Part shown: positions 46,847-62,679 of the stretch, in pieces
How the letters are laid out: each line of letters starts with the position of its first letter
Numbering within the stretch: position 1 is the first letter of the stretch
Source of the DNA: Tetraselmis striata
Taxonomy: Eukaryota > Chlorophyta > Chlorodendrophyceae > Chlorodendrales > Chlorodendraceae
DNA length: 64,000 bases
Assembly (NCBI GenBank): GCA_006384855.1
Contig: VCJN01000418.1
Span: 62,001-126,000, forward strand
Direction: 5' to 3'
Made by a program: the position numbers and the translations under genes
Notes under the pieces: generated by a model
Seen by the model: the letters and a program-made list of their open reading frames with translations, nothing else
The model's database searches: none
What the model was told of the DNA's origin: nothing

Positions 46847-48392
46847 CAGTGCAGCATTCATCAGCGTGCAGGCCAGCCGCGACGCATATCCAATGTTGGT
46901 TTTGGAGCATTTTGTCCAAATGGGACAAGATGAGGCAATGAAATCAATATTTATTATGATGATTACATCCATCGGCTAGCCACAAGACGTTGCTGATAGT
47001 TTTTTCGATGAGCATCCCCAACTCAAACAAGTCCTTCTTCATGGCTGAGTTAAACTTGACGACTCCGCCGGGTTTGCGTTGCGCTTGGGTGGTTGATATG
47101 ACGTGGACGCAGTTGTTTCGTGGCTGGCTGATTTGCCACCCAGTTTGCGCATATGTCTTCACGACTTGGACGCTTTTACCGTACCACTTCTTTCTGACCA
47201 TGGTGCCGTCCTCGTTGAACACCTTTCGACTTCCCGACGCGTCGTGGATGGCCTTCGCGTACGACAAGGGGACGGCTTCAACAAGCTTCCAAGGAAGCGT
47301 CAGGCACTTCTCCCAGCTTTGTGTCAACTGGCTTCTTCCCTCCTTTTGTCTGCGCGTACAACCATAGGGGCATTAGGGGTTTGCCCTTTGCATCGGCATG
47401 GAAGGGCTCGTATACGGCCACGGTCAACGTGTCTTCGGTAGTCTCGCGCGACTTCACAAGCCTGATGACGAATCTCGACTCCCAATCACCAAGAGTTTCA
47501 GCACACTTGTCGTCCTCATGCACCTAATGATGGCCAAGACCGCGAGCTATGTTAGTCCCGAGCGAGACGCCACGCCATTTTTGTCCCAGTTGGGACAAAA
47601 TAACAAGCAAGGTAGATGAACCAAATTGTTTTGTCCCGTAAAGGACAAAAATGACAAACAATGGGACTCACATCGGAGACGTCGATGGCAACGAGGTTCG
47701 AGCCCTTTGCATCGCTGGGCGATGTGTTGTCATGAAGCCTCTCCTTGGCGCCGGCGTGAACTCCCCGGAAGGCGCTGTCATCTTGAAGCACTTGAGCACG
47801 AACCTCGGCTTCAACGCGAGCGGCTTCGGCATTGTTGAGGCATGCGTTGGTAGCCATCGTGTGACGTGCCTCAGCAGGCGCGGTCTGCCCATGCTCGCGC
47901 AAGAAGTCGTCAACTTCCTCTTTCCGTTGCGGCCAGAACCCGGAGAAAGCTGCCGAAGGAGCAGTTTGCATCTCATCCAAGTCGTCGAGCAGATTCTTCC
48001 AACTCTCGCGCTCGACTGGGGAGAAGTGCCACTAGACCGCTAGGTCCGTGATGTACGACCTGACCTTCTTGAAATCATCCAAGTCCCTCTGGACCTTCAC
48101 CGCGTCGGGCTTCTTTTTGTCGCAGAGAGCGTACAAAAGGGGCCGGCCCGCACGAATCTCGGGCGTCCCAGTTGGCGCGCTCTTTAAGATCTGCACGGGC
48201 TCAGAAAGCGGTGTGTTGGACCACAAGGCGGTGCGCACTGAGCCGCCAGACGCGGCGGCGTCGTCACGGGTAAACGCGAATTTGTGCGGCTTACTGATGT
48301 CCTGAATGTGGTCTTGGAAATGGGGCCTTAACCACTCAGAGAAGTCGAGGGAGAATGAGAGCTCAGCAATCTCCGGAGTGGGCGAGAATGCC

Positions 48393-48439
48393 TTTTTTTT
48401 TTCGCCCCCGGGACAGGACTGGCACCAGTGAAACCCTTC
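48393..48439 (-). mobile_element. 47-bp LINE 3'-tail insertion in exon 3 of the DUF7869-type gene
   Basis: On the minus strand: G, then 36 bases AAGGGTTTCACTGGTGCCAG plus TCCTGTCCCGGGGGCG, then ten A. The 36 bases are identical to 27953-27988 and nearly identical to the end of the LINE at 62152-62187. The insert is flanked by GCC (48390-48392 and 48440-48442, plus strand). Removing it and one GCC restores an open frame, FLDLVAFSPTPEIAEL, so it is an extremely 5'-truncated LINE copy that shifts the reading frame (50 bp net). Confidence 0.85.
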
Positions 48440-49192
48440 GCCACCAAGTCAAGAAAGGCCTCGATTGTGTAGGCGGAGCTGCGAGATAGCGCAAGACTGA
48501 TGCGGCTGAAGATCTGGTCAACCCGTTCGTGAGTGTGCCCGACAGGCAAGAAGACCAAATGAATGACGTCGCAGATGCCGATAGACACAAGCCAATTGCA
48601 GAGGGCCGCCACGTTCCTATTCTTGTTCTCCCTGACGGTGTTGTCCATCTGGATTCTGATGTACGGAATCTTTCTACCACGGTGTTGAATGTCCTGCATC
48701 GCAGATCAGATTTCATCAGTCCATGGCTACCGGACAACCACGGCGAACCGGTACAGGGCACATTTTTGAGCCAAAACGGTCCAATTCCTGGACTCAAAAA
48801 TGTGCCCCCCACGTGATCGCTTAGGCTGGGATATGTACCCATTTTTCGGTCACATTTCAGGTGCAATGCAATACTATACGAGAGTACTAGAAATGGCACA
48901 TCGGTGTGTCCTCTTCGCGCCCTCAGTCGCGTAAAGTACTATCCGCCTCACCTTGGAAGATTGCGGACGCGAGGGCGTGGCGACTGCGTTTCAAGCAGCG
49001 TTTCAAGCCTGGAAATCGAGCCTCACTCGCGCAGAGATGACGCCCCGGGCCTACGAGTCTATCGCCGACCTCAGAGATTGTGTTCGTCGCAACGAGATGC
49101 TACCTCTGAACCCTGCTGACAGCGACGCGGCGTTGCGGCGAGATGTCGGCGCAGGCGGCGGTGCGGGCTTCGCGTCCCGAGATGAGGGCTCC

Positions 49193-50180
49193 TTAGGCGG
49201 AGATGCGGGTCGGGGAGGCGGAGATGCGGCACCGCCACGTGAAGATGTGGCCCTGCGACTCCCACCAGCGGCACCCGAAGGCGCCTGACGGCTTGACGTG
49301 GCTTCGCGTTTCGGCTTAGGCGCCTGGAAGGGGTCGTCGTCCTCCAACTCTTTCGCCATCTTAAAGGAGGAGTCGGCCCACGCTTCTTGGAATGCTTCTT
49401 GCGCAGCTTAATGGGCGACAAGCTGCTGCTCTTACCTCCATAGGCGGAGATGCGGGTCGGGGAGGCGGATATGCGGCACCGCCACGGGAAGATGTGGCCC
49501 TGCGACTCCCACCAGCGGCACCCGAAGGCGCCTGACGGCTTGACGTGGCTTCGCGTTTCGGCTTAGGCGCCTGGAAGGGGTTGTCGTCCTCCAACTCTAT
49601 CGCCATCTTAAAGGAGGAGTCGGCCCGCGCTTCTTGGAATGCTTCTTGCGCAGCTTATTGGGCTACAAGCTACTGCTCTTACCTCCATAGGCGGAGATGC
49701 GGGTCGGGGAGGCGGAGATGCGGCACCGCCATGGGAAGATGTGGCCCTGCGACTCCCACCAGCGGCACCCGAAGGCGCCTGACGGCTTGACGTGGCTTCG
49801 CGTTTCGGCTTAGGCGCCTGGAAGGGGTCGTCGTCCTCCAACTCTTTCGCCATCTTAAAGGAGGAGTCGGCCCACGCTTCTTGGAATGCTTCTTGCGCAG
49901 CTTATTGGGCTACAAGCTGCTGCTCTTGCCTCCATAGGTGGAAATGAGGGTCGGGGAGGCGGAGATGCGGCACCGCCACGGGAAGATGTGGCCCTGCGAC
50001 TCCCACCAGCGGCACCCGAAGGCGCCTGACGGCTTGACGTGGCTTCGCGTTTCGGCTTGGGCGTCTGGAAGGGGTTGTCGTCCTCCAACTCTATCGCCAT
50101 CTTAAAGGAGGAGTCGGCCCGCGCTTCTTGGAATGCTTTTTGCGCAGTTTAATGGGCGACAAGCTGGTCTTGCCTCCCGT
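49193..50180. repeat. 247-bp tandem repeat, four copies
   Basis: Copies start at 49193, 49440, 49687 and 49934 with the marker TAGGCGGAGATGCGGGTCGG, exactly 247 bp apart. On the minus strand each encodes MAKELEDDDPFQAPKPKREA, then TSSRQAPSGAAGGSRRATSS (or MAIELEDDN...). Since 247 is not a multiple of three, the copies cannot be one frame; each would be a separate exon or non-coding. Confidence 0.93.
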
Positions 50181-50520
50181 GCTCAACGCACCGTGCGGGC
50201 GCTTCGTCGCACTCGAAGGCTGAGGCTCACTCGGCGGCTTGGCAGTCTCCGAGGGACCAAGCCTGCTCGGGGGAGGGGCGGAGCTGCTCGAAGCCCTATC
50301 AAGAGACCTGCTGCAGCGCCGTTTTGGGAGCCATCTCCGCCGGACCCCGGTGGCGGTGGTTGAGATGCGGGCTTAGAGGACCCGCCAGCCTGACGCGGCG
50401 CCGCTACGACCTGGTAGTAGCGGTCGTCGACCAAGACGGTGGGGGGTAAAGAGCCGGCTCGGCAACCTTCCAGTGTGAGGATTTTTATGACAAAAAGGGG
50501 ATTTAATTGCCCATATGCTT

Positions 50521-51058
50521 TACAATACTATACAGATTGCAAGGCAGTACCACTAATGCCTGATATTTGCTCGCGGCACGCCACAGATTGCTGCAGCGCT
50601 GCACCGCAGATGCTGCCTTTAGGCATGCTTCTATTGCCTAGATGGCTGCAAACCATTTCGTATGCGGGGCTGCATGGCATAGAAGGGATGTGAACACGCA
50701 CCTGCTTGACGATACTATGCAGATTGCAAGGCAGTAGGGCTAATGCCTGATATTTGCTGGCGGCACGCCCCAGATTGCTGCAGCGCTGCACCGCAGATGC
50801 TGCCTTTAGGCATGCTTTGATTGCCTGGATGGCTGCAAACCATTTATTAGTATGCGGGGCTGCATGGCATAGAAGGGATATGAACACGCACCTACTTGAC
50901 GATACTATACGGACTGCAGGGCAGTAGGGCTAATACGTTATATTTGCTGGCGGCACGCCGCAGATTGCTGCAGCCCTGCACCGCAGATGCTGCCTTTAAG
51001 CATGCTTTGATTGCCTAGATGGCTGCAAACCATTTAGTATGCGGGGCTGCATGAATCA
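50521..51058. repeat. About 185-bp tandem repeat, three copies
   Basis: The marker AGATTGCTGCAGC recurs at about 50583, 50771 and 50953 (spacings 188 and 182). Units contain GCAGATGCTGCCTTTAGGCA and TATGCGGGGCTGCATGGCAT. Confidence 0.9.
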
Positions 51059-51090
51059 CCAACATGCGCCGGTCGCCGCGCGTTGGCGCG

Positions 51091-51270
51091 TTGGCGCCCC
51101 GCTGCGCCGGCCGCGGCGCGTTGGCGCCCCGCTGCGCCGGCCGCGGCGCGTTGGCGCCCCGCTGCGCCGGCCGCGGCGCGTTGGCGCCCCGCTGCGCCGG
51201 CCGCGGCGCGTTGGCGCCCCGCTGCGCCGGCCGCGGCGCGTTGGCGCCCCGCTGCCCCGGCCGCGCTAGC
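51091..51270. repeat. 30-bp tandem repeat, six copies
   Basis: The unit is TTGGCGCCCCGCTGCGCCGG CCGCGGCGCG, repeated exactly at 51091, 51121, 51151, 51181 and 51211, with a slightly changed sixth copy at 51241. Very GC-rich and able to form hairpins. A related piece (GCGTTGGCGCCGCGCTGCCC) occurs at 22767 in the CACTA element. Confidence 0.97.
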
Positions 51271-51431
51271 AAAGGAAGTGCGGTTTGTGAAATCGACGGA
51301 CATGAGTCAATTAAACTCTTATCTGCGGTTGAGAATGATTTGTTGTGATAGTTGATTATGATTAATGAGGTATTGTCCAGGGAGCTATGGCAGCGAATTT
51401 CAAGCTGCATGAATCCCTTGTCACGGACCAG

Positions 51432-52690
51432 ACACGAACCCACGTTGCTTGCCGAGGTGCTCCGAGAGATGCGCCCTTAAAGTCGCCGAATCTCTTCCGA
51501 TGACCAACCACAAGGCGCGTCCGTTGGTGTCGGGGTTTCTTGGGTGCTTTGGCGCGATGAGAAGTACACGACCCGCTGTCAACATGCTGTCGAGGTAGTC
51601 CATTAGCGGCAGGGGCCTTTGCGTCATGTAGGTGCTCGGAATCTGCACGCGATAGATTACCGCCTTGGAGGCCGCCAGCAGCTATAGGAGCAAATTCAGG
51701 TGAGTGAACCAAGGCGACATGGCAACGACAAAGGGCTCCTTGCCTAGGGCAGCGTTACAAGAGCTAGGAGCGACAGTACACGGGTTTGCACGCGAGAGAT
51801 GCGAGCGCTCATATGCCCCCACTGCGGAGATGCGGGTAATCCCACCCTCTACCTTTAAATTCTCTCCACCCTCCGCATCTCTTGCTCGTCAGTCGTGCCA
51901 GCGGTGGCCTCAGCCACCGCTGCTTTGACGTCCGCGAGGACGTACCCATCGTCTTCAATGTGGGCCTCCGGGTTCCAGTGCCGCATCTCTTTCGCCGCCG
52001 TCATGGTTCTCGCCGTCTCGCATACACGAACCCACGTTGCTTGCCGAGGTGCTCCGAGAGATGCGCCCTTAAAGTCGCCGAATCTCTTCCGACGACCAAC
52101 CACAAGGCGCGTCTGTTGGTGTCGGGGTTTCTTGGGTGCTTTGACGCGATGAGAAGTGCACGACCCGCTTTCAACAGACTGTGGAGGTAGTTCATTTGCG
52201 GGCGGGGCCCTTGCGTCATGTAGGTGCTCGGAATCTGCACGCAACAGATTTCCGCCTTGTAGGCCGGCAATAGCGGTAGGAGCAAATTCAGGTGAGTGAA
52301 CCAAGGCGACATGACAACGACAAAGGGATCCTTGCACAGGGCAGCGTTACAAGAGCTAGGAACGATAGTTCACGGGTTTGTACGCGAGAGATGCGAGCGC
52401 TCATATGCCCCCACTGCGGAGATGCGGGTAATCCCACCCTCTACCTTTAAATTCTCTCCACCCTCCGCATCTCTTGCTCGTCAGTCGTGCCAGCGGTGGC
52501 CTCAGCCACCGCTGCTTTGACGTCCAGGAGGACGTACCCGTCGTCCCCAATGTGGGCCTCCGGGTTCCAGTGCCGCATCTCTCGCCGCCGCCATGGTTCT
52601 CGCTGTCTCGCATACACGAACCCACGTTGGTTGCCGAGGTGCTCCGAGAGATGCGCCCTTAAAGTCGCCGAATCTCGTCCGACGACCAAC
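51432..52690 (-). repeat. About 591-bp tandem repeat, 2.1 copies, with coding potential
   Basis: ACACGAACCCACGTTG recurs at 51432, 52024 and 52614. On the minus strand the copies keep the same open segments: MNYLHSLLKAGRALLIASKH, WLVVGRDSATLRAHLSEHLG, KQRGFVYARRREPW, then after a frame change HWNPEAHIEDDGYVLADVKA and AVAEATAGTTDEQEMRRVER. Protein-level conservation between copies suggests duplicated exons of a transposon gene. No domain recognised. Confidence 0.8.
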
Positions 52691-52709
52691 TTCAAGGCGT
52701 CGACAATTG

Positions 52710-53057
52710 TCACATCTCGCCCCCTCCTGACGGCAGTGAGTGGCACGCAGCAATTGAGAAAGATGATGAGGAGCAGCCCCCCCCCCCCCTCCCCCGCCAC
52801 GCTGTCGACATTGGCAGGACCCGAGCCGTAGTCCGGGTCTGCCATGACGAGGGCTTTTGCCGGGCCATTTTACCAGGGGACGAGATTCGCATCTGCCGGT
52901 GAGCTTCTTCGACATACTCGTTGCAAATCCCCCGCAACTCGTTGTACACAAGCCGGTGGCCTTCAGAGGCCAAGAAGGCCCGCATGTTCACCATGCTGCC
53001 TCTCGCCCCTGCCCCTCTCTTGCAGTCTGAGGTCATCGGGTATCGCGGATCGTGCAT
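52710..53057 (-). CDS. Exon-like ORF in the 5.2-kb insertion, unknown
   Basis: The minus-strand frame contains GSMVNMRAFLASEGHRLVYN, then ELRGICNEYVEEAHRQMRIS. This looks like a helical protein segment upstream of the repeated exons. A C run at 52779-52791 follows and may mark an intron. No family recognised. Confidence 0.35.
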   Translation of the reverse strand: MHDPRYPMTSDCKRGAGARGSMVNMRAFLASEGHRLVYNELRGICNEYVEEAHRQMRISSPGKMARQKPSSWQTRTTARVLPMSTAWRGRGGGGCSSSSFSIAACHSLPSGGGEM

Positions 53058-53160
53058 GATGTGTTAGAGGTCGTTGGCAGACAAGGACGAAAACACGAAG
53101 CGGGTGGGAAACGGGGCGGGTGTCACCACTCATGTCGAGATGCGCGACGGCGAGGTGCGC

Positions 53161-53766
53161 TTAACGCAGCCCACGGCGCCCTGATGAGAGATGCAAGCGA
53201 AGATGCGAGTCCGCGTACCGTTGGAGTCGCTCCTGGGAGAGGGACCAAAGGTGGCACACCTTGAGGCTTGGGGGGTCAGGCTGAGGCTCGCCGTGAGGCG
53301 AAGGCTGCGAATCTCCGGCCCCGGGCCATAGCGGTCCGCTTCCATGTTGCCCACCGCCCGGCTGCATGGGCCTCATGGGCTGAGTCGTGGGTATTGGCGC
53401 CTGAGACGCCCTCCTGCCGGAACGCAAGTGCATCTGCGGAGAATCTTGCGCCATGGGGGTCACTAGCAGTGTGTCGAGAGCCCTGCTCGTTGGGTCAAAG
53501 CCAAGTGCAGCCGCAGATGTCCCCGCCACGCACAGAACTGTGCAAGCGGGCAGATGTGCGTTTTGCTCTGCGAGGACGGTCTGCCATGCTTTTGTGCACC
53601 GAGAAGCGTTAAGATGCCTCAAAGAATACAAGCGCGAGAGAGCTTGCGAGGGGTAGATGAGTGGGAAGCACAGTGGCGGCGTAGCATTCGAGACCAGAAA
53701 AAACGGTTGGCGTGGAAGGGTAGCGACGCATCTCGTCAAAGGGCGGTGGACAGGCGTGTAGTACAT
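53161..53766 (-). CDS. ORF of 201 codons in the 5.2-kb insertion, unknown
   Basis: This is an open minus-strand frame with FLVSNATPPLCFPLIYPSQA, LRHLNASRCTKAWQTVLAEQ and QMHLRSGRRASQAP, ending in a Pro/Gly-rich stretch. It is the longest frame of the insertion and reads in the same direction as its other coding pieces. No domain was recognised; it could be the first exon of the element's gene. Confidence 0.35.
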   Translation of the reverse strand: MYYTPVHRPLTRCVATLPRQPFFLVSNATPPLCFPLIYPSQALSRLYSLRHLNASRCTKAWQTVLAEQNAHLPACTVLCVAGTSAAALGFDPTSRALDTLLVTPMAQDSPQMHLRSGRRASQAPIPTTQPMRPMQPGGGQHGSGPLWPGAGDSQPSPHGEPQPDPPSLKVCHLWSLSQERLQRYADSHLRLHLSSGRRGLR

Positions 53767-54639
53767 AGTGAAGGTTCATTTCACTGAACAGTACCTCGTA
53801 CAGTGTTGGCAAGAAAAGGAAGCCAGTTTCACAGTACATTCGTACAGTGTTAGGCTGGACTCAAATTTGCACCCCCCAAAAGGGGTACAATATTGAGTTA
53901 AGGGGGGTGCAATTTTGAGGCCAGAAATGTGCCAATTTTGACTCAATAATCGCCCTTTTTCCACGGCGAACCTATCGGGAGGCTGACGAGCTCACCTTCA
54001 TGATCGTGATCCATATTAGAGTGCACGTCGTGGACGAGTCGTGGGGGGTGGTGTTGGTGTAGTAGTAGATGTCGTCCGGGCGGTATCCGTCGTACTTCAC
54101 ACATGTGAGGTGGTACTTGAGGAGCATGTCGGGCTTCACAGTCTTGGGGATGCGAACCCAGTGAGGCAGCAGGTCTTCGCGGAGTCCATGCTATCAATTT
54201 CGAAGAAGAACAAGTTTCCATGGCCAAGGCGCGACTGGAAGACGGCGTTGTTCAGATCCCTTCGTTCCTGGCGCACTCTCTCGAGGTGTACCTTCTGCTC
54301 AGCTCTGACCTGACGCCTCACGAGCTGCTGATGTTGACGGTGCACTTGACGTTCCTCTGGCGTCATGTCCTTTGTGCAAATCTCGCGAGCTTGGTCTCTG
54401 AGTGCTTTGCCCGCCGCGCACATGGGACAGTGGCTGAATCGCTTCACCTTTGGCGTGGTGACATCCGGGAAGTCTTCCTTCCAAGTCCGGCGGAAAGTGT
54501 CGAACGATGCGAGCTTCACTTCGCTCTCGGTAGCCAAATCTATAAAGCGGCATGGGCATGATAGGTCGGTATACAAATAAGGTCTCATAATGCGAGACAG
54601 AAAAGTTCGGTCTAAAGTGGGTCGAGATAATTATATCGA

Positions 54640-55595
54640 TAGTGGGTGAATAATTCTGTATTGTGGGCGAAACAATCTGTCATCAGTGTGACGAAACGGT
54701 ATGTCAGTAGTGGGACAAAACCGTCTCTCACCAGTGGGACAAAACATTCTCTCTGCAGTGGGACGATATCGGCTAATTATCTGGGAGAAATGGTTTTGTG
54801 GTCGGTGGGACGAAACGGTATGCCATGAGCGGTGCGAAACGTTCTGTCATCAGTGGGACGAAATCGGTCCGGCATCAGTGTGACTAAACGTTATGGCGAA
54901 GGCGGGACGAAACGCTTTGTCAACAGAGGGACGAAACGGTTTGTCATCAGCGGACAAAACGATCTGTCGTCAGTGGGACGAAACGGTTTGTCATCAGCGG
55001 GACAAAACGGTCTGTCATCAGCGGGACAAAACGGTTTGTCATCAGTGGGACGATATCGGCTGATTATGTGGGACAAATGGTTTTGTGGTCGGTGGGACGA
55101 AACGGTATGCCATAAGCGGTGCGAAACGTACTGTAATCAGTGGGACGAAATCGGTCCGGCATCAGTGGGACTAAACGTTCTGGCGATAGCGGGACGAAAC
55201 GGTTTGTCATCAGAGGGACGAAACGGTTTGTCATCAGCGGGACGAAACGGTCTATCGTCAGTGGGACGAAACGGTTTGTCATCAGCGGGACAAAACGGTA
55301 TGTCATCAGCGGGACAAAACGGTATGTCATCAGTGGGACGAAACGGTTTGTCATCAACGGGACGAAACGGTCTGTCATCAGTGGGACGAAAACGTTCTGG
55401 CGATAGCGGGACGAAACGGTATGTCATCAGCGGGACGAAACGGTCTGTCGTCAGCGGGACGAAACGGTACGGTTTGTCATCAACGGGACAAAACGGTCTG
55501 TCATCAACGGGACGAAATAGTGTGTCATCAGCGGGACGAAACGGTCTGTCATGAGCGGGACAAAACGGTTGGTCATCAGTGGGACAAAATGAGCC
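54640..55595. repeat. 24-bp minisatellite forming intron 1 of the DUF7869-type gene
   Basis: Some 40 units of CAGTGGGACGAAACGGTTTG TCAT and variants fill the intron 54540-55599 almost completely. A longer-period copy is visible: the irregular run GGACGATATCGGCTAATTAT ... GGTCCGGCATCAGTG at 54759-54884 recurs at 55050-55170. The array reads open in several frames only because 24 is a multiple of three. Confidence 0.95.
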
Positions 55596-56425
55596 TCACC
55601 ACGGAGAATGGCGTTGTCGTCCTCGGCCCACGACTTGTAATAGTAGTAGACGCAAATCTTGGTCATCCAGGGAGGTAGGTGCTTCTTGAAGGTCTCGTTG
55701 TTGCCGTCGTGAAAAGGCATGATCTCGACGTGACCGAGGTCATCTGAGAAGAAGTGCTCGAGAAACATGCGCACATGCTCCCTCGGTCCGGTTTGTCTGC
55801 TCTCGTATTGCTTGCGCTGCCTGATGTACGTGGGTTCGTTATCCACCACCGACCGCTGGATCAGGAGACGTCTGTGTTTCGAGACCTGATGCAAGGCCTC
55901 CCACGCACGCCCACACGTGTAGATGGGGCCTCGATGATCGAAAGAGCGCAGGTAGCCACCGTGATCAAACATGTAATCGAACTTGTCGGATGCCGACTCG
56001 TAGCCACCCCTGAGAACCTGAGCGAGCCGGTCAAAGGAGCGGTTCTGATTGCCACAGTATACGGTCAACGCACGGTCCAACACGGCATCAACGAGGGCCT
56101 CTCCGCACGGTGTGTATAGCTTGTGCACGCACTTCCGCGAACAGCATGGCGACTGCTCGCTAGCTTCCTTGGCGAGCATGAGGCGGATACAGTCGCGAGA
56201 GGTGCGCTTGCTGATCAGAGACGAGACCTTGCCATTATCGCTATCGGCGACCTTATCGGAGCCCTTGCCCCACGTGTACTTCCTTTTCTCAGGCTCCTTA
56301 CGATCACTAGCACGCGCGTCGCAATCACACGAGTACCCGCTGCGGCACGAACACGGCGGTAATGTAACTGTGGTGTCCGACGCGCCGGATCCTGGAGAAG
56401 AGGCCATGCTTTCGACCGCCGCCAT

Positions 56426-57069
56426 GCTCCAGCGTGGGGCGAGTGGGGGGGGGGGGTGGGTGAAGGACTGTGATTTGCGGTGAGAAAGACTGACGGCCGA
56501 TGACCGTTCTCGGACGGGCCGTTGACCGGGGTGCATAATATCCAGCTACGGGTCAAAATAATTGAACCTGATGACTCAAATACCTGAGCTGTACTGAGCC
56601 AAAATACAGGATGCCGTACAGGTGAGTTTGTAAATCGTACTACAGGAAATATTTAGGAAATATATTAGTGGTAGTATTTCGTGTTATTTCGTGTTTCTTT
56701 CGTATGTCGGTAATAGTTCTATACTAGTATGTACACCCGAATCCAATCCAAGGAATATATCATCCCATGAAGGAATATTATTGCCACGCCACTGTACTCT
56801 CGTACAGGTATGACTCTCGAGTAGGGAATATTTTATCTTCCATTAATAGTAATATATGGTCGCAGTAGTTAGCCCTGTATATTCGTCGCGGTGCAAAATA
56901 CATGAACCTGATGACGACGACGAGGTGCACTATAGTGTGTGCACGCGCGCCGTTGGTCCAGCATGGGTCAGAGCGGCGGCAGACAGAGACCACGTCATTA
57001 CCACCTCGCCCACACCGCTTCCCACGAAGACACTCGCTCATCTACCGCGTCAACCTACCTACCGCCAGA
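56426..57069. promoter_or_regulatory. Shared intergenic region of two divergent genes
   Basis: Start codons of the DUF7869-type gene (56425, minus) and the methyltransferase-like gene (57070, plus) face away from each other across 644 bp. The middle (56590-56860) is AT-rich, unlike the flanks, and contains near-repeats of AGGAATATWTYATCC and GTACAGGTATGACTC. A bidirectional promoter is the simplest reading. No specific factor site can be named. Confidence 0.5.
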
Positions 57070-59054
57070 ATGGCGCCGAAGAAGAACGAGCCTGCCAAGG
57101 ACAAGGAAGACAAGGACGACGCCACCCTAGGTGAGTTGCGTGCGCGTACATTAGCTGCCTGCCTGCTCGACGCGTGATGCGGCCAGATCTAGCGAGTTCG
57201 GTTAGGGTTCCCTGTAGAAGCGGTGTAATCTAGGACCGCTCGAGGTGTAGGCAGACGAGTGGGAATAGAAACCCAAACGAGACGAGCGGCATCAGGATCC
57301 TGCACGGTAGTATTACATCCCGTCGAGGCAGCTGCGGCAAGTTCAGTAAGGATGCTAATTGGTGGTGGGAGGGGGATGGGGGTGGAGAGCGGCCATGTGG
57401 ACCATGTGCATATACTCCGCCGTAAGGAGTGGTTTAATATTAGTGTGAAGCGCAGTACTTAAAGACATAACATTATTAAACCGCAGTACTTAAAGACATA
57501 ACATTATTAAACCGCAGTACATAATGTATTGGAAATAGTTCTGTCATCAGTGGGACGAAACGGTTTGTCATCAGCGGGACGAAACGGTTTGTCATCAGTG
57601 GGACGAAACGGTTTGTCATCAGTGGGACGAAACGGTTTGTCATCAGTGGGACGAAACGGTTTGTCATCAGTGGGACGAAACGGTTTGTTATCAGTGGGAC
57701 GAAACGTTTTGTCATCAGTGGGACGAAACGGTTTGTCATCAGTGGGACGAAACGGTCTGTCATCAATGGGACGAAACGGTATGTCATCAGTGGGACGAAA
57801 CGGTCTATTTGAGGTCGACAAGAATGACAAGGTCTGGTTGAACACGGAGCTTTGCAAGACTTGCATTGTGGAGGGGGACTTCAAGGCTCCCGCGACAAAA
57901 CAAGCCGTCGCGGACGCCATGTCGGTAGTTCGTGCAAGAAAGGCAACAGTCTTCATTGCCGACGCGCTTTTCGGAGCTGATTCGCACACATGGGACTCGA
58001 AGGATGCTGCGTGGGGTACGGACGACTTCAACGACGTGTTTGCTTTCGCCAGGCAAGACACCCCCCACAACCCCGGTGCGTAGATGACTGTGCTTTCATT
58101 TATCTCATTCCAGATTTCCCCGCGCAGGCAGTTGAATATCCCGACTGGATCTTCTGACGTCCACACTGCTCTCAATGGGTGCCATTTCTTCATTCACCTC
58201 TCGGACCAGCAACTTGGATCCGCAATCACAGCCGTTCAAAAACAAGCTGAGGACCTCATCTGTCACGTCCTGACTTGGGCCAAGGATTGCGGGATGAAGA
58301 TGGGCAGCTCTCTGCGTCACGACGCTGAGTACTACCTCTACGTCAGGAAGCCCCCGCCAAGCATCATAGCTGACAACATCCGTTTCGATGATCCCCGAAG
58401 GTGAGATATGATCCGTGGAAAATAGCCGGCTTGTATTTATTTACTCGCTAATCCGGTTGTGCCTTTCCAGGTTCTCTACATCCATCATGCTGGGTCCCTT
58501 CAAAGACAGTTCGAAATTGAAGGACGAGAACAGACAGACGGTGAACAAGTACCAAAAGCCTATCGCTCTCTTCGCCAAGCACCTTAAGATGGCGGCAACA
58601 GACGGGACAACAATCGTCGACGTCACAGCCGGAACCGGGACAACCGCGGTGCGTGAGGGTGCAACCCGGGTGAGTGTCTTAATGGGGTCAACATAAAAAA
58701 ATTAACGCCTTGTGCGGTTTGCCACGCCTTTTCCAGGTCGCTGCGGCCTTTTCCGTGTGGTGGGACCATATGCATCCGAGCTACCCGTTCACATACAGGA
58801 ACTTGAAGACGATCCTCATTGACAACCAGAAGACGCAAATCGCTGGGATGAAGTCCAGGATGACCTCATGGTTCAAAGAGAAGCCATGGGACGAGACTCA
58901 AAGACTGCGTCCAGATGACTTCGAGAAGTGGCCGGGTCTACCCCTTCCAATGACCCTGGGAGAGGTGTACGCAGAGCGTGCAGTGGCGGAGAAGAGGAGG
59001 CAAGAGGCGGCAGATCGCCGAGGGGATTATGTGATCGAAGATGATGATATGTAG
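57070..59054 (+). CDS. Methyltransferase-like gene with degenerate catalytic motif, five exons, ~363 aa
   Basis: Proposed exons: 57070-57130, 57791-58052, 58128-58400, 58471-58648, 58737-59054. Phases agree and the total is 1,092 nt. Exon 1 (MAPKKNEPAKDKEDKDD) ends in a classic donor, GTGAGT. The start of exon 2 is inferred and lies in the last minisatellite unit; intron 2 would be GC-AG. At residue ~76-82, FIADALFGADSHTWDS fits the position of motif IV (normally DPPYG ... WD) but reads DALFG. HFFIHLSDQQLG follows. At ~247-258, IVDVTAGTGTTAVAAAFSVW is motif I, the SAM-binding loop with D-x-x-AG-x-G-T-T. The order IV before I is that of beta-class N4-cytosine/N6-adenine DNA methyltransferases. 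The SAM loop looks sound but the catalytic DPP[YF] is lost, so it may bind SAM or DNA without methylating. No stops or shifts were seen, unlike its divergent partner. Confidence 0.65.
57535..57808. repeat. 24-bp minisatellite in intron 1 of the methyltransferase-like gene
   Basis: Eleven units of CAGTGGGACGAAACGGTTTG TCAT, nearly uniform, end directly before the coding sequence of exon 2. It is the same unit as in intron 1 of the divergent gene. Each unit holds TCATCAG|TGGG, so every copy offers an AG that could serve as a splice acceptor. Open frames (SVGRNGLS repeated) are by-products. Confidence 0.97.
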
Positions 59055-59299
59055 TACAATTCCGCAAATTAGCCGCTCATATGTTTTGTCCCGGCTTTGA
59101 CAGAGTTTCAGCCCCGGACGGCACAAACTTCTTGTAACCATCCCGTTTCCTTCACTCTTTTGATTTGTCCCTGTTTGGACGGAATTGGTTTCCCCGACTT
59201 GGCACAAAATGAACCAACTGTCATTCATATTAGCTTTCAATCCCGCTGCTGCCCCAAACCCTTATTTAGACCTAACCACAATGCACCGCGTGCCTCGGT
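59055..59299. other. Spacer after the methyltransferase-like gene
   Basis: AT-richer 3' flank with several TTTTGTCCC and TTTGTCCCTG words, which also occur near the other gene's 3' end at 46909 and 47580. No gene recognised. It probably holds the 3' untranslated region and the border of the transposon that carries the divergent pair. Confidence 0.4.
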
Positions 59300-62187
59300 G
59301 CAAAATAGGTTGCATTACTGTTATAGAGTTCGGACCCTAGTACGTAATAACCGCCGCCGCCGCCAGAGGGAGCGGGCCGTGCAGAAAGCGGTTCGGGATT
59401 TTAACAAGGGTGGCGGAAGACGGGAGTTCTGGAAGTGGGCGCACTCTCTCCGTGAGGGACAAGGTTCATTCCAGGGGGCGAACGACCAGCGAATACGCGA
59501 TCCGGTATCGGGCGTACTTTATACCGAGCCGAGCGGAATCAATGTGTGCTAGGCGCGGCACGGTCGGGAGCTGTTGCGTGACCCCCACCTCCTAGCACAA
59601 CGGGTTGCGATAAACCGTGCGGCGCGGGAACACCGCCACGGTACATCGCCACCCATTGCCCCCGCACTAAACGGGATTAAAAGGCCTACATCATGGGAGG
59701 AACTAGTCAAGGCTCGTTGGCGTTTAAAAATAGTAAGGCCCAAGAGCAGGATGGGATTACTGCGTAGGCTTTAGATTGGCGATATACGCCCCGAATAGCC
59801 ATTTTCGCAAGGCATTGCTGGCCGTAATCAACGGGATATGGACTAAGAGCTATATCCCTCAGCAATGAGGAAGCTCGGCCATAGTATCGGTACCCCAAAA
59901 AGGCGACTCGACCGTTATGGACAATTATAGGGGCATTACGATTATTATGGGTGCCGCTATGAAACTCCTTGCAAGACGTCTGTCAAGCTAAAGGGATACT
60001 TCGTCATCGGCAAGCGGATTTTATGCGGGATGAGGAGGGCCCCATGCAAATCGCCGGTATGTTCGATATCGCGCGGCTCGTCGCCAAGCGTTAGGACTAC
60101 CCACGTACGCGGAATTTATTGACTATAGGAAGGCATATGACACCGTACCTCGTGAGCCTTTATTCCTAAAATTATAAGCCATGGGAGTCACGGGTCATAT
60201 GCTTACCTTCATTAGAACTCTACATAGGAATAGTATGGTACGGGTTAAGACATGGGTGGCCCCGGGAACGCTATCAGACCCCATGCCCATAGAGCGTGGC
60301 CTCCGACAGGGGTTCCCCACTCCCCCCATCCGATTTAACATATTTATTTATTTAAAACGATATATTCGATGGGGTAGAACATCTAGGGTGTGATATACAA
60401 GGTAGTGCACCGACACATTAGCGGCAAGGCAATCACTGCGGGTGCCAAGTCACTTATATGCGGCCGATGCTGTTGATATCACATGCTCGTTCTATAACAT
60501 GCATGCCATGTTCGCCCACTTATCGCAATGGGCAGAGGACCATTTTATGGGGTTTGGGGTACTCAAGTGTGGGGTGATGGCATTAGGCCGATATTCCGAC
60601 GAGAGCGCGTTACGCGAACAAGCTGCCCGATGGCAGCTTGTGGGGGAACGGGTACCGGTTGTAAATGCATATAGGTATTTGGGTTCGGTCATTAACTCGG
60701 ATGATGTAGCTATGCGGCACATAGTAGACAACCGGATTAAGAAGGGTATACGCGCCATTGAGGCGCTCGATTCGGTATTAGTCGGTGGACGGGACATAAT
60801 TCCTAGAAATGTGCGTGTGTCTGTCTTTAAAACTTGTACACTACCGGTTCTAAGTTACATGCGTGAATATGGGGTATGGATAGAACTAGCGGCGCAAATA
60901 AATTACAAACCGTACGCAATCAGTGCTTGCGGTGCCTTATCGGGGTGAGTAAAATCTCCCATGTGGTGGCCACTGCACCGATGATGCGGGATTTGGATAT
61001 TGCGCCCATAGAGGCTACGGCCGCTGCGGCACAAGCTCGGGCGTTCCTTAAAGCACCCGACTTGAAGACATGTATAACACCTTTAGTAAATCAGCCAAAT
61101 CGGGCGCGCCCTAACACATGGACGTCGGGGACTGTGCGGTGGTTAGATCAACTAGCCATGGCGAACGTAGCGCTAGCTGAGGAGGCGCACATTCCACTTG
61201 ACTGGTGGTCACTATCAGCGCGCGATGCCGCTTAACTAGTAAAGGCATCGGTGTGGGCGCGTTACGAATCGCCGGCGGCAGCGTTCGCACACACTAAAAC
61301 CTGGGGTATATATGTCTAGGCGTCTTATGCGTCAAACCCGTTGCCGCAATATGGTGTAGTGGGTGTCCCGCGGGGTTGTGGCCGGCTGCACATTATGATA
61401 CAATTACGCACCCGTTGAGTATTTCCCACTGCCCGCCGATTGGCCTGGATTCATGCCATAATGCCTGAGCGGTTCCTTGAACATTGCCCTGCATGTGGCG
61501 GAAGTAAACCTGAGACTATCGAACATATGTTGGTGGAGTGTCCGCGGTGGGGGTATCACTGTCATAATTTGGGGTTGTTAGTTCCGGAGTTTAGGGATTT
61601 AAGTTGTAGTCAAGTTATTGCGTCAACACATTGCCTTTATTTTGGGCGGGCTACTCCCCTCCCTTCACGGCGCCCTGGATGTTACTGGGAATGGGAAAAT
61701 TTTCAAGCTATTGCGCCGGGCGGCCCTCCGTCACAATGCCTTTTTTTTTGCTACACATGTATCGCACTCCCGAAATGCTTTGCTCCGCGGGATGGGGCTT
61801 GCCCCAACTCGCATTACTCGAATGGGCCGACGCCCAAACGGGCAGGGCGGGCCTTTCGTTGTCAGTGTCGGGTATTTCACTTTTTGATGGCATTGTTTTA
61901 GACGGTGATCCAACAGCTGGATTTCCTTCTCGATTTCCTTATGGATTTCTATATGGATTTCTTGAATGTTGCGTCTAGCACATGTAATCACATCCAACAG
62001 TGTTGGAAATTCCGTGACCTTCAATTAGTCTTGCGGAATGCTTCGGCAATTTGCTTGTTGACTATGGGGTCAATAGCGGAGTGTCGCCTACTCAGGGCTT
62101 TCCGTAGCTGGATCGCTGCCTAAACGGCCGTCGTCATTGAGACGCTGCAGCAAGGGTTTCACTGGTGCCAGTTCTGTCCCGGGGGCG
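59300..62187 (+). pseudogene. LINE 3' part: reverse transcriptase and C-terminal zinc finger
   Basis: Plus-strand frames in order: LVRNNRRRRQRERAVQKAVR, SWEELVKARWRLKIV, GVTGHMLTFIRTLHRNS, IERGLRQGFPTPPIRFNIFI (RT motif B), HLYAADAVDITC (motif C, normally YADD; the first Asp is Ala), VVNAYRYLGSVINSDDVAMR and VFKTCTLPVLSYMREYG. The C-terminal finger is HCPACGGSKPETIEHMLVEC. These are non-LTR (LINE) RT motifs. Stops between the pieces and the lost Asp make it inactive. The element ends in the tail AAGGGTTTCACTGGTGCCAG plus an A-rich run at 62188. No endonuclease precedes it here; one lies on the same strand at 37031-38240. Confidence 0.8.
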
Positions 62188-62679
62188 GAAAAATAATGAC
62201 CATAAACCATCACAGAGGGGCCGCCGCCTCAGCGTTGCCGGGATTACGGTAAAAAGGCCGCACCGCCACTACCCGTAGGGACTTATTTAATATCTATAAT
62301 TAATTTACGTCAGAACTAACCAGCCGCGCAGAATTCTCACAACGGCTCGGTGCGACGACGACAGTAGCAGTGCCTCTCATTCTAACCTCCTACCCGTACC
62401 TATACTACCAGGTACTCTGGACATCCTCGCCTGACGGATCGCTACTGGTACTCCAGATCGAGCGCTATCTTGTACCTGCCCGTTGTGAGAAGTCCTGCCA
62501 GCAACGAAGTTCTCTGCCGCGCAGTGTCTGCGACGTACCAGCAAGGCTACCCAGGCGGTCCCGCAAGGCTCACGCGCTCAGCCGGCCCCTGGCGGCCGCT
62601 CACCTCTAGCGCGGCGCACCCCCAACCTAGCGTCCCGCGCGGGGGGGTGGCGCAGCGGCTGGCCGCCTGGGCGGCCAGG
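62188..62679 (+). other. Upstream region of NAA35
   Basis: The spacer begins where the LINE ends and runs to the proposed NAA35 start. An open frame continues upstream of the proposed ATG to 62470 in phase with it, so a longer N-terminus is possible, though that part (MYLPVVRSPASNE...) shows no conserved feature. It should hold the promoter and 5' untranslated region. Confidence 0.45.

Follow-up and report, generated by a model that had tools for sequence, protein, structure and literature searches.

An 11–13-kb DNA transposon family of Tetraselmis striata carrying a DUF7869 gene and a divergent methyltransferase-like gene

A repeat family with shared termini

The window analysed here is a 64,000-nucleotide stretch of a contig of the green alga Tetraselmis striata (VCJN01000418.1, referred to as C326) within the 224 Mb of genome searched. 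It contains two multi-exon genes, A and B, which diverge from a 644-bp intergenic region (Table 1). The first-pass annotation had described this arrangement and had called the first gene DUF7869-type, in agreement with our Pfam scan, in which PF25273 (DUF7869) matched the third exon of A (E 2.7e-28). It had also proposed that the two genes form one transposon, with one partner that moves DNA and one that marks it. The many copies, conserved arrangement, ends and target duplications that we found bear out this proposal: the window copy belongs to an 11–13-kb DNA transposon family of T. striata. A copy on contig C1496 served as the main reference for comparison.

The copies end in 26-bp terminal inverted repeats (AACAGTAATNNAACCTATTTTGCNCC). 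The termini pattern (AACAGTAATNNAACCTATTTTGC, at most one mismatch) occurred at 541 genomic places, about 100 of which were listed, and the reversed control pattern at none. With up to two mismatches, the right terminus (GCAAAATAGGTTGCATTACTGTT) was present in 29 of 30 B loci; of the 20 loci fetched, 19 had the left terminus and one, C450, did not. The sequence outside the termini differed between copies, indicating unrelated insertion sites. Exact 4-bp target duplications flanked 14 of the 19 elements for which both ends were fetched; they were absent in C58, C488, C455, C200 and C226, of which C488 and C455 agreed at three of the four bases. In a separate set of 12 end pairs inspected by eye, seven had a duplication (C226 was common to both sets). 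The duplications were of mixed composition (GGTA, TCAC, GCCA, ACGC and others). Most of the 19 elements (14) spanned 11.1–12.8 kb. C70 and C200 were about 7.3 kb long, and C345, C264 and C483 reached 18.6–28 kb, presumably through nested insertions.

The DUF7869 exon gave 150 scored genomic matches among 534 candidates, and the last exon of B 150 among 468. Gene A was 97.9–99.9% alike among five copies other than that of the window (10 pairs), which points to a probably recent spread of the family. The A loci behind the divergence and selection estimates were the best-scoring matches, which biases A to low divergence.

The DUF7869 gene, its partner and their pairing

Gene A proteins shared a conserved D...D-38-E/D pattern. 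Both E507 and D510 (P0011 numbering) were conserved, so that the triad may be read as DDD or DDE. The structure model of A predicted an RNase H-like fold in which the three acidic residues sit on the expected strands. Its domain matched retroviral integrases and Mos1, with moderate model confidence in this domain, and a sequence search of the PDB with A gave no match. From the motif pattern and the predicted fold we strongly infer that A is the DDE-type transposase of the element. The ratio of non-synonymous to synonymous differences per site (pN/pS) between the window copy and C1496 was 0.17, 0.17 and 0.23 in A exons 1–3, and over all pairs it was 0.25 and 0.34 in exons 2 and 3, which points to clear constraint on A. 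One search recovered 312 DUF7869 relatives at E 0.001 or better, and the 120 that were listed came largely from ENA and JGI collections. In the open-access papers searched, we found no paper naming DUF7869 and no relevant paper combining GHTHE with a transposase. Two gene models joined DUF7869 to other domains, namely P0034 (PF01555) and P0051 (phage-integrase SAM-like domains); each probably reflects the merging of neighbouring genes or a nested element.

The 34 listed gene models of B were 685–1042 residues long and consisted of acidic repeats, a middle region without an assigned domain and, in those models that retain it, a methyltransferase part at the C-terminus. In the window, this C-terminal part showed the methyltransferase-like motifs FIADALF, KPIALF and VTAGTGTT. 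Many genomic copies, when read across intron stops, scored above the curated cut-off of 26.7 bits for PF01555 (N6_N4 DNA methyltransferase), and single B gene models fell just below it. Of 30 B loci, 25 had motif I (AGTGTT). Gene B thus ends in an N6/N4-type DNA methyltransferase domain. The middle region contains IDGSHRREAKR...KMYIGLSPEVCRYM, which by eye resembles a ParB-type stretch. The P motif of the ParB-CTPase fold is GxxR (PMC12704722), and the motif-like stretches read by eye were GSHRREAKR and GGSHSAEARR. The structure prediction for B had a mean predicted local distance difference test score (pLDDT) of 31.2, and a sequence search of the PDB with B gave a single match at chance level. 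Over all pairs, pN/pS was 0.74, 0.26, 0.37 and 0.62 in B exons 9–12, suggesting that exons 10 and 11 are constrained and the neighbouring exons little. Stronger PF01555 matches (61–117 bits) occurred outside the family (C1010:99804-100724, C2009, C1597 and C803), and could belong to organelle, bacterial contamination, viral or host genes.

The two genes are linked across the genome. A listed A match lay within 25 kb of 82 of the 150 listed B places and was divergent in 80 of these 82; most divergent pairs were 9.3–10.3 kb apart. The remaining 68 B places are uninformative, as the A matches are the best 150 of 534. Eleven A–B pairs of gene models had consecutive TSEL tags, and A and B diverged in step between copies (15 pairs of six copies). 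The pair is therefore repeated in the genome with its order, distance and orientation kept and with minisatellite arrays in the same introns. For a second DUF7869 group of T. striata, 6 of 25 places shared their contig with a PF01555 match among the matches listed: five were divergent (four at 9.5–12.6 kb, one at 24 kb) and one was on the same strand. These 25 places, and 34 of a P0052-like DUF7869 group considered below, were chosen from 140 matches, as a rule one per locus. Of 118 PF01555 matches, 51 were used and 67, taken for the B family itself, were omitted; by eye, only one omitted match (C1531) lay on a contig with a chosen place, more than 100 kb off.

DUF7869 was also found in prokaryote assemblies, at nine loci, eight of which were in one Trichormus metagenome-assembled genome (MAG). 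The partner gene on these MAG contigs reads across introns, which suggests that the contigs are probably eukaryotic contamination. On five of the eight, DUF7869 diverged from a gene that combines a ParB-like stretch with a methyltransferase part; the remaining three were too short to show this. The MAG partner had motif IV as DIPY (L129, L130) and motif I as FSGTGTT. Neither a sequence search of the PDB with this partner nor searches with ParB family profiles gave a match.

Repeat arrays, dyads and the state of the window copy

Within the window, the 24-bp unit was confined to the first introns of A and B, as the first-pass annotation had stated: at up to three mismatches there were 33 matches, clustered at 54676–55591 and 57540–57802, and shuffling predicted none. 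The exact unit occurred 2604 times genome-wide. Judged by eye, none of the listed places, on six contigs, was more than about 11 kb away from a terminus or from a match to A or B. From the shared minisatellite it had been argued that the two genes arrived and evolve together. Joint arrival is borne out by the termini and duplications, and joint evolution agrees with the parallel divergence of A and B. The minisatellite is weaker proof, since C1496 has three array clusters (in A intron 1 and two B introns) and unequal exchange can spread arrays of this tandem type.

The unit has the core TTTGTC...GGGACRAAA. A 22-bp dyad in A intron 3 (TTTTGTCCCANNTGGGACAAAA) was present in 28 of 30 A loci and perfect in 20 of 30. 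Outside the arrays, the element had 6 occurrences of TTTYGTCC or GGACRAAA in 6072 bases, against 2 in the 56735 bases of the rest of the window. Scans for perfect dyads count against reading the arrays as such sites: the T. striata element had one with arms of at least 9 (shuffled mean 0.4) and three with arms of 8 (shuffled mean 1.6). The T. striata arrays are degenerate dyads, not perfect ones.

The MAG contigs had perfect dyads different from those of T. striata (GTCGATGC...GCATCGAC, about 51 bp apart). These clustered in the divergent intergenic region of L130 (11 of 12 dyads), L133 (8 of 8), L134 (3 of 4) and L129 (1 of 3). L131, L132 and L135 had 2, 3 and 1 dyads near the contig start, upstream of DUF7869, and L136 had none. 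In 40 shuffles of L130, L133 and L134, the mean number of dyads was 0.05–0.18 and the maximum 2. Very long perfect inverted repeats with arms of 31–36 bp also lay inside the intergenic dyad arrays (L130 3105–3185, L133 2702–2779, L134 4593–4658). As such sites stand next to a ParB-like protein, the dyad-type arrays may be self-recognition sites; cruciform-forming or promoter sites are possible as well.

The copy in the window is a dead relic, having lost its left end, received a 5.2-kb nested insertion, accumulated broken frames and lost an internal part of B. Homology to other copies started at 46847 (blastn against C1496), and among the termini places listed C326 had a single one. Indels broke the frames of A in exons 2–4, and B lacked about 5.4 kb, including several exons, between its array and the exon at 57814. 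The extent first given, 46944–59054, encloses both genes, and the element is wider, reaching from 46847 to the right terminus at 59322. The segment 48750–53960, at first counted as part of the module, is a separate nested repeat outside it: a 12-bp target duplication lies on its two sides, and the C1496 copy lacks it. Its part 51200–53000 had 209 genomic matches, 64 of them longer than 700 bases and some within one copy; long matches elsewhere were 92–97% alike. The repeat also contains internal tandem arrays of 247, 190 and 30 bp. The A–B distance in the window equals that of most other copies by coincidence, because the nested insertion and the 5.4-kb deletion are opposite changes. A 44-bp insertion in A exon 3 (48395–48438) has an A-run at its end and by eye resembles a stretch near 62155–62200, as if it were a short retro-insertion.

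Table 1. Features of the transposon copy in the window
Feature	Position	Strand	Evidence and remarks
Window copy of the transposon	46847–59322		Alignment to C1496 (blastn) and left ends at other loci; left-truncated, right terminus intact, nested repeat inside
Gene A (DUF7869, putative DDE-type transposase); four exons, ~56425–55600, 54539–53996, 48693–47672, 47523 to ~46944	46944–56425	minus	Splice sites from the sequence and the C1496 copy
DUF7869 stretch with second and third catalytic-type motifs (QMDN, GHTHERVD)	48412–48705	minus	PF25273 (E as in text), motif spacing
24-bp minisatellite array, intron 1 of A	54663–55589		Tandem Repeats Finder (TRF), pattern scan
Divergent intergenic region, 644 bp	56426–57069		A start codon (ATG) at 56425, B ATG at 57070
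Gene B, internally deleted; exons ~57070–57130, 57814–58075, one ending at 58400, 58471–58648, 58737–59054	57070–59054	plus	Fuller gene models P0058–P0091
24-bp minisatellite array, intron 1 of B	57542–57804		TRF, pattern scan
Near-perfect dyad TTTTGTCCCAGTTGGGACAAAA, intron 3 of A	47579–47600		Dyad scan
Nested foreign repeat, 5211 bp, high copy	48750–53960		12-bp CCACGGCGAACC copies at 48738–48749 and 53961–53972; empty site in C1496
Right terminal inverted repeat, ending ...GCATTACTGTT at 59322	59297–59322	minus	Shared termini of other copies

The stretch 59323–62000, directly right of the element, resembled a decayed reverse transcriptase on inspection by eye; Pfam gave no match in the single frame scanned. 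A Mak10/NatC subunit gene (PF04112) comes next, at 62.4–63.6 kb.

Interpretation and comparison with known systems

The two genes very probably represent one defective copy of a DNA transposon of the cut-and-paste type, with A as its DDE/D transposase and B as a partner that would bind and mark or mask its own element. The repeat family, its termini and target duplications, the A–B linkage and the sequence relationship of both domains are the observations under this reading; B's binding target, methylation and effect are conditional extensions of it. In such a mechanism, A would recognise the 26-bp terminal inverted repeats and insert the element with a 4-bp staggered cut. B would most likely bind repeats of its own element and mark or mask it, and this marking would affect the expression or silencing of the element.

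Several results weigh against this reading. The structure model of A was weak overall (mean pLDDT 45.6), and none of its Foldseek matches reached E 0.001. Motif IV was found in 27 of 30 B loci, as DALF in 26 and DAFF in one, not as DPPY. The DPPY type is the usual catalytic motif IV, so catalysis by B in the T. striata family appears doubtful. The ParB assignment had no support in Pfam, PHROG or NCBIfam. B exons 9 and 12 were weakly constrained (0.74 and 0.62), and between the window copy and C1496 their ratios exceeded 1, on only 3 and 1 synonymous changes. The T. striata B and the MAG partner were weakly related (hhalign probability 8, E 0.0043), and in BLASTP the ParB part reached E 0.03 and the methyltransferase part 2e-4, values that hold for a set of six proteins only. 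Among the matches listed, none of the 34 places of the P0052-like DUF7869 group had a PF01555 match within 30 kb, although a diverged partner could be missed. The A–B pairing is therefore recurrent among these matches, not universal: the expectation that the genes do not occur independently held for the repeated pair, and the partners need not be inseparable.

An unlikely alternative is that A alone is the transposon gene and B a captured passenger, linked to A and without a role in movement. That B exons 9 and 12 are weakly constrained, that motif IV is degenerate and that the matches listed hold no partner for the P0052-like group would all be in line with a passenger, and most accessory genes of the giant Ectocarpus elements are likewise said to lack a known function (PMC12477816). 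A mere passenger is harder to reconcile with the apparent constraint on exons 10 and 11, with the recurrence of the divergent pairing across three groups, of which one comes from another organism, and with the like opposite-strand partner of the Ectocarpus Sola1-1 transposase (PMC12477816). We consider it highly improbable that the element is viral, such as a polinton-like or other integrated virus. Papers on polinton-like viruses do name Tetraselmis striata, and the size and inverted repeats fit loosely, but only PF25273 and, at the methyltransferase exons, PF01555 were convincing in the A and B exons scanned, with no capsid, DNA polymerase B or packaging ATPase gene among them. Moreover, DUF7869 and B were not found in the viral contigs scanned, and the target duplication is 4 bp long versus the 6 bp given for Polinton (PMC10045372). 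An integrated virus was rejected on the lack of these hallmark genes among the exons scanned and on the duplication length. Two adjacent host genes amplified by segmental duplication, to which the multi-exon structure and gene models might point, were rejected as next to impossible given the terminal inverted repeats, the hundreds of termini and, above all, the contradicting 4-bp duplications at unrelated sites.

Read as a self-marking transposon, the family also allows a broader and quite tentative hypothesis. DUF7869 transposons of distant eukaryotes might share a three-part kit in which a DDE transposase is joined by a divergent ParB-like methyltransferase and by a dyad array specific to the element; the array would act as a parS-like site on which the partner loads and marks its own family only, forming an element-coded self/non-self system. 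If the partner does bind the dyad arrays, eukaryotic transposons would have a DNA marking system of their own that is addressed by sequence. Dyad arrays beside such genes raise a new question.

Related combinations are known. Phage fusions of a ParB-CTPase fold with an N6_N4 methyltransferase likewise hold both domain types in one protein and are associated with mobile elements; they differ in being enriched in prophages, and the available passages on them do not mention a DDE transposase partner (PMC12704722). Fungal DNA transposons with TET/JBP dioxygenase genes resemble the T. striata family in that a transposase gene travels with a DNA-modification gene, thought to be anti-silencing. They encode a dioxygenase instead of a methyltransferase and belong to other superfamilies (PMC12730594). 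The Sola superfamily has a DDD-type transposase, a triad that A may also carry, and shares the 4-bp length of the target duplications, the terminal inverted repeats and a size range of 2 to >15 kb (PMC10741241, PMC3627910), whereas the duplications of Sola2 are AT-rich (PMC3627910) and those of the T. striata family mixed. Given the duplication length and transposase type (PMC10741241), the T. striata element is probably Sola-1-like, and DUF7869 would then correspond to the Sola-1 transposase.

The closest counterpart is Sola1-1_Ec32 of the brown alga Ectocarpus, a large DNA transposon with a transposase and an opposite-strand gene whose 1104-residue product has ParB-like and N4/N6 DNA methyltransferase domains (PMC12477816). 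The first-pass annotation knew of no described element with this pair; the pairing of a transposase with a methyltransferase is of a kind already known from Ectocarpus, and the same account refers to Iyer 2011 and Petroll 2025 for cases in green and red algae. Sola1-1_Ec32 differs in its length (21.5 kb versus 11–13 kb in T. striata), and the available passages of its account do not mention dyad arrays (PMC12477816). The pairing thus recurs in distant groups, and DUF7869, a Pfam domain of unknown function, would gain a mechanism-level identity. What is added to the known pair is the reading of DUF7869 as a transposase, the termini of the family and the dyad-type arrays.

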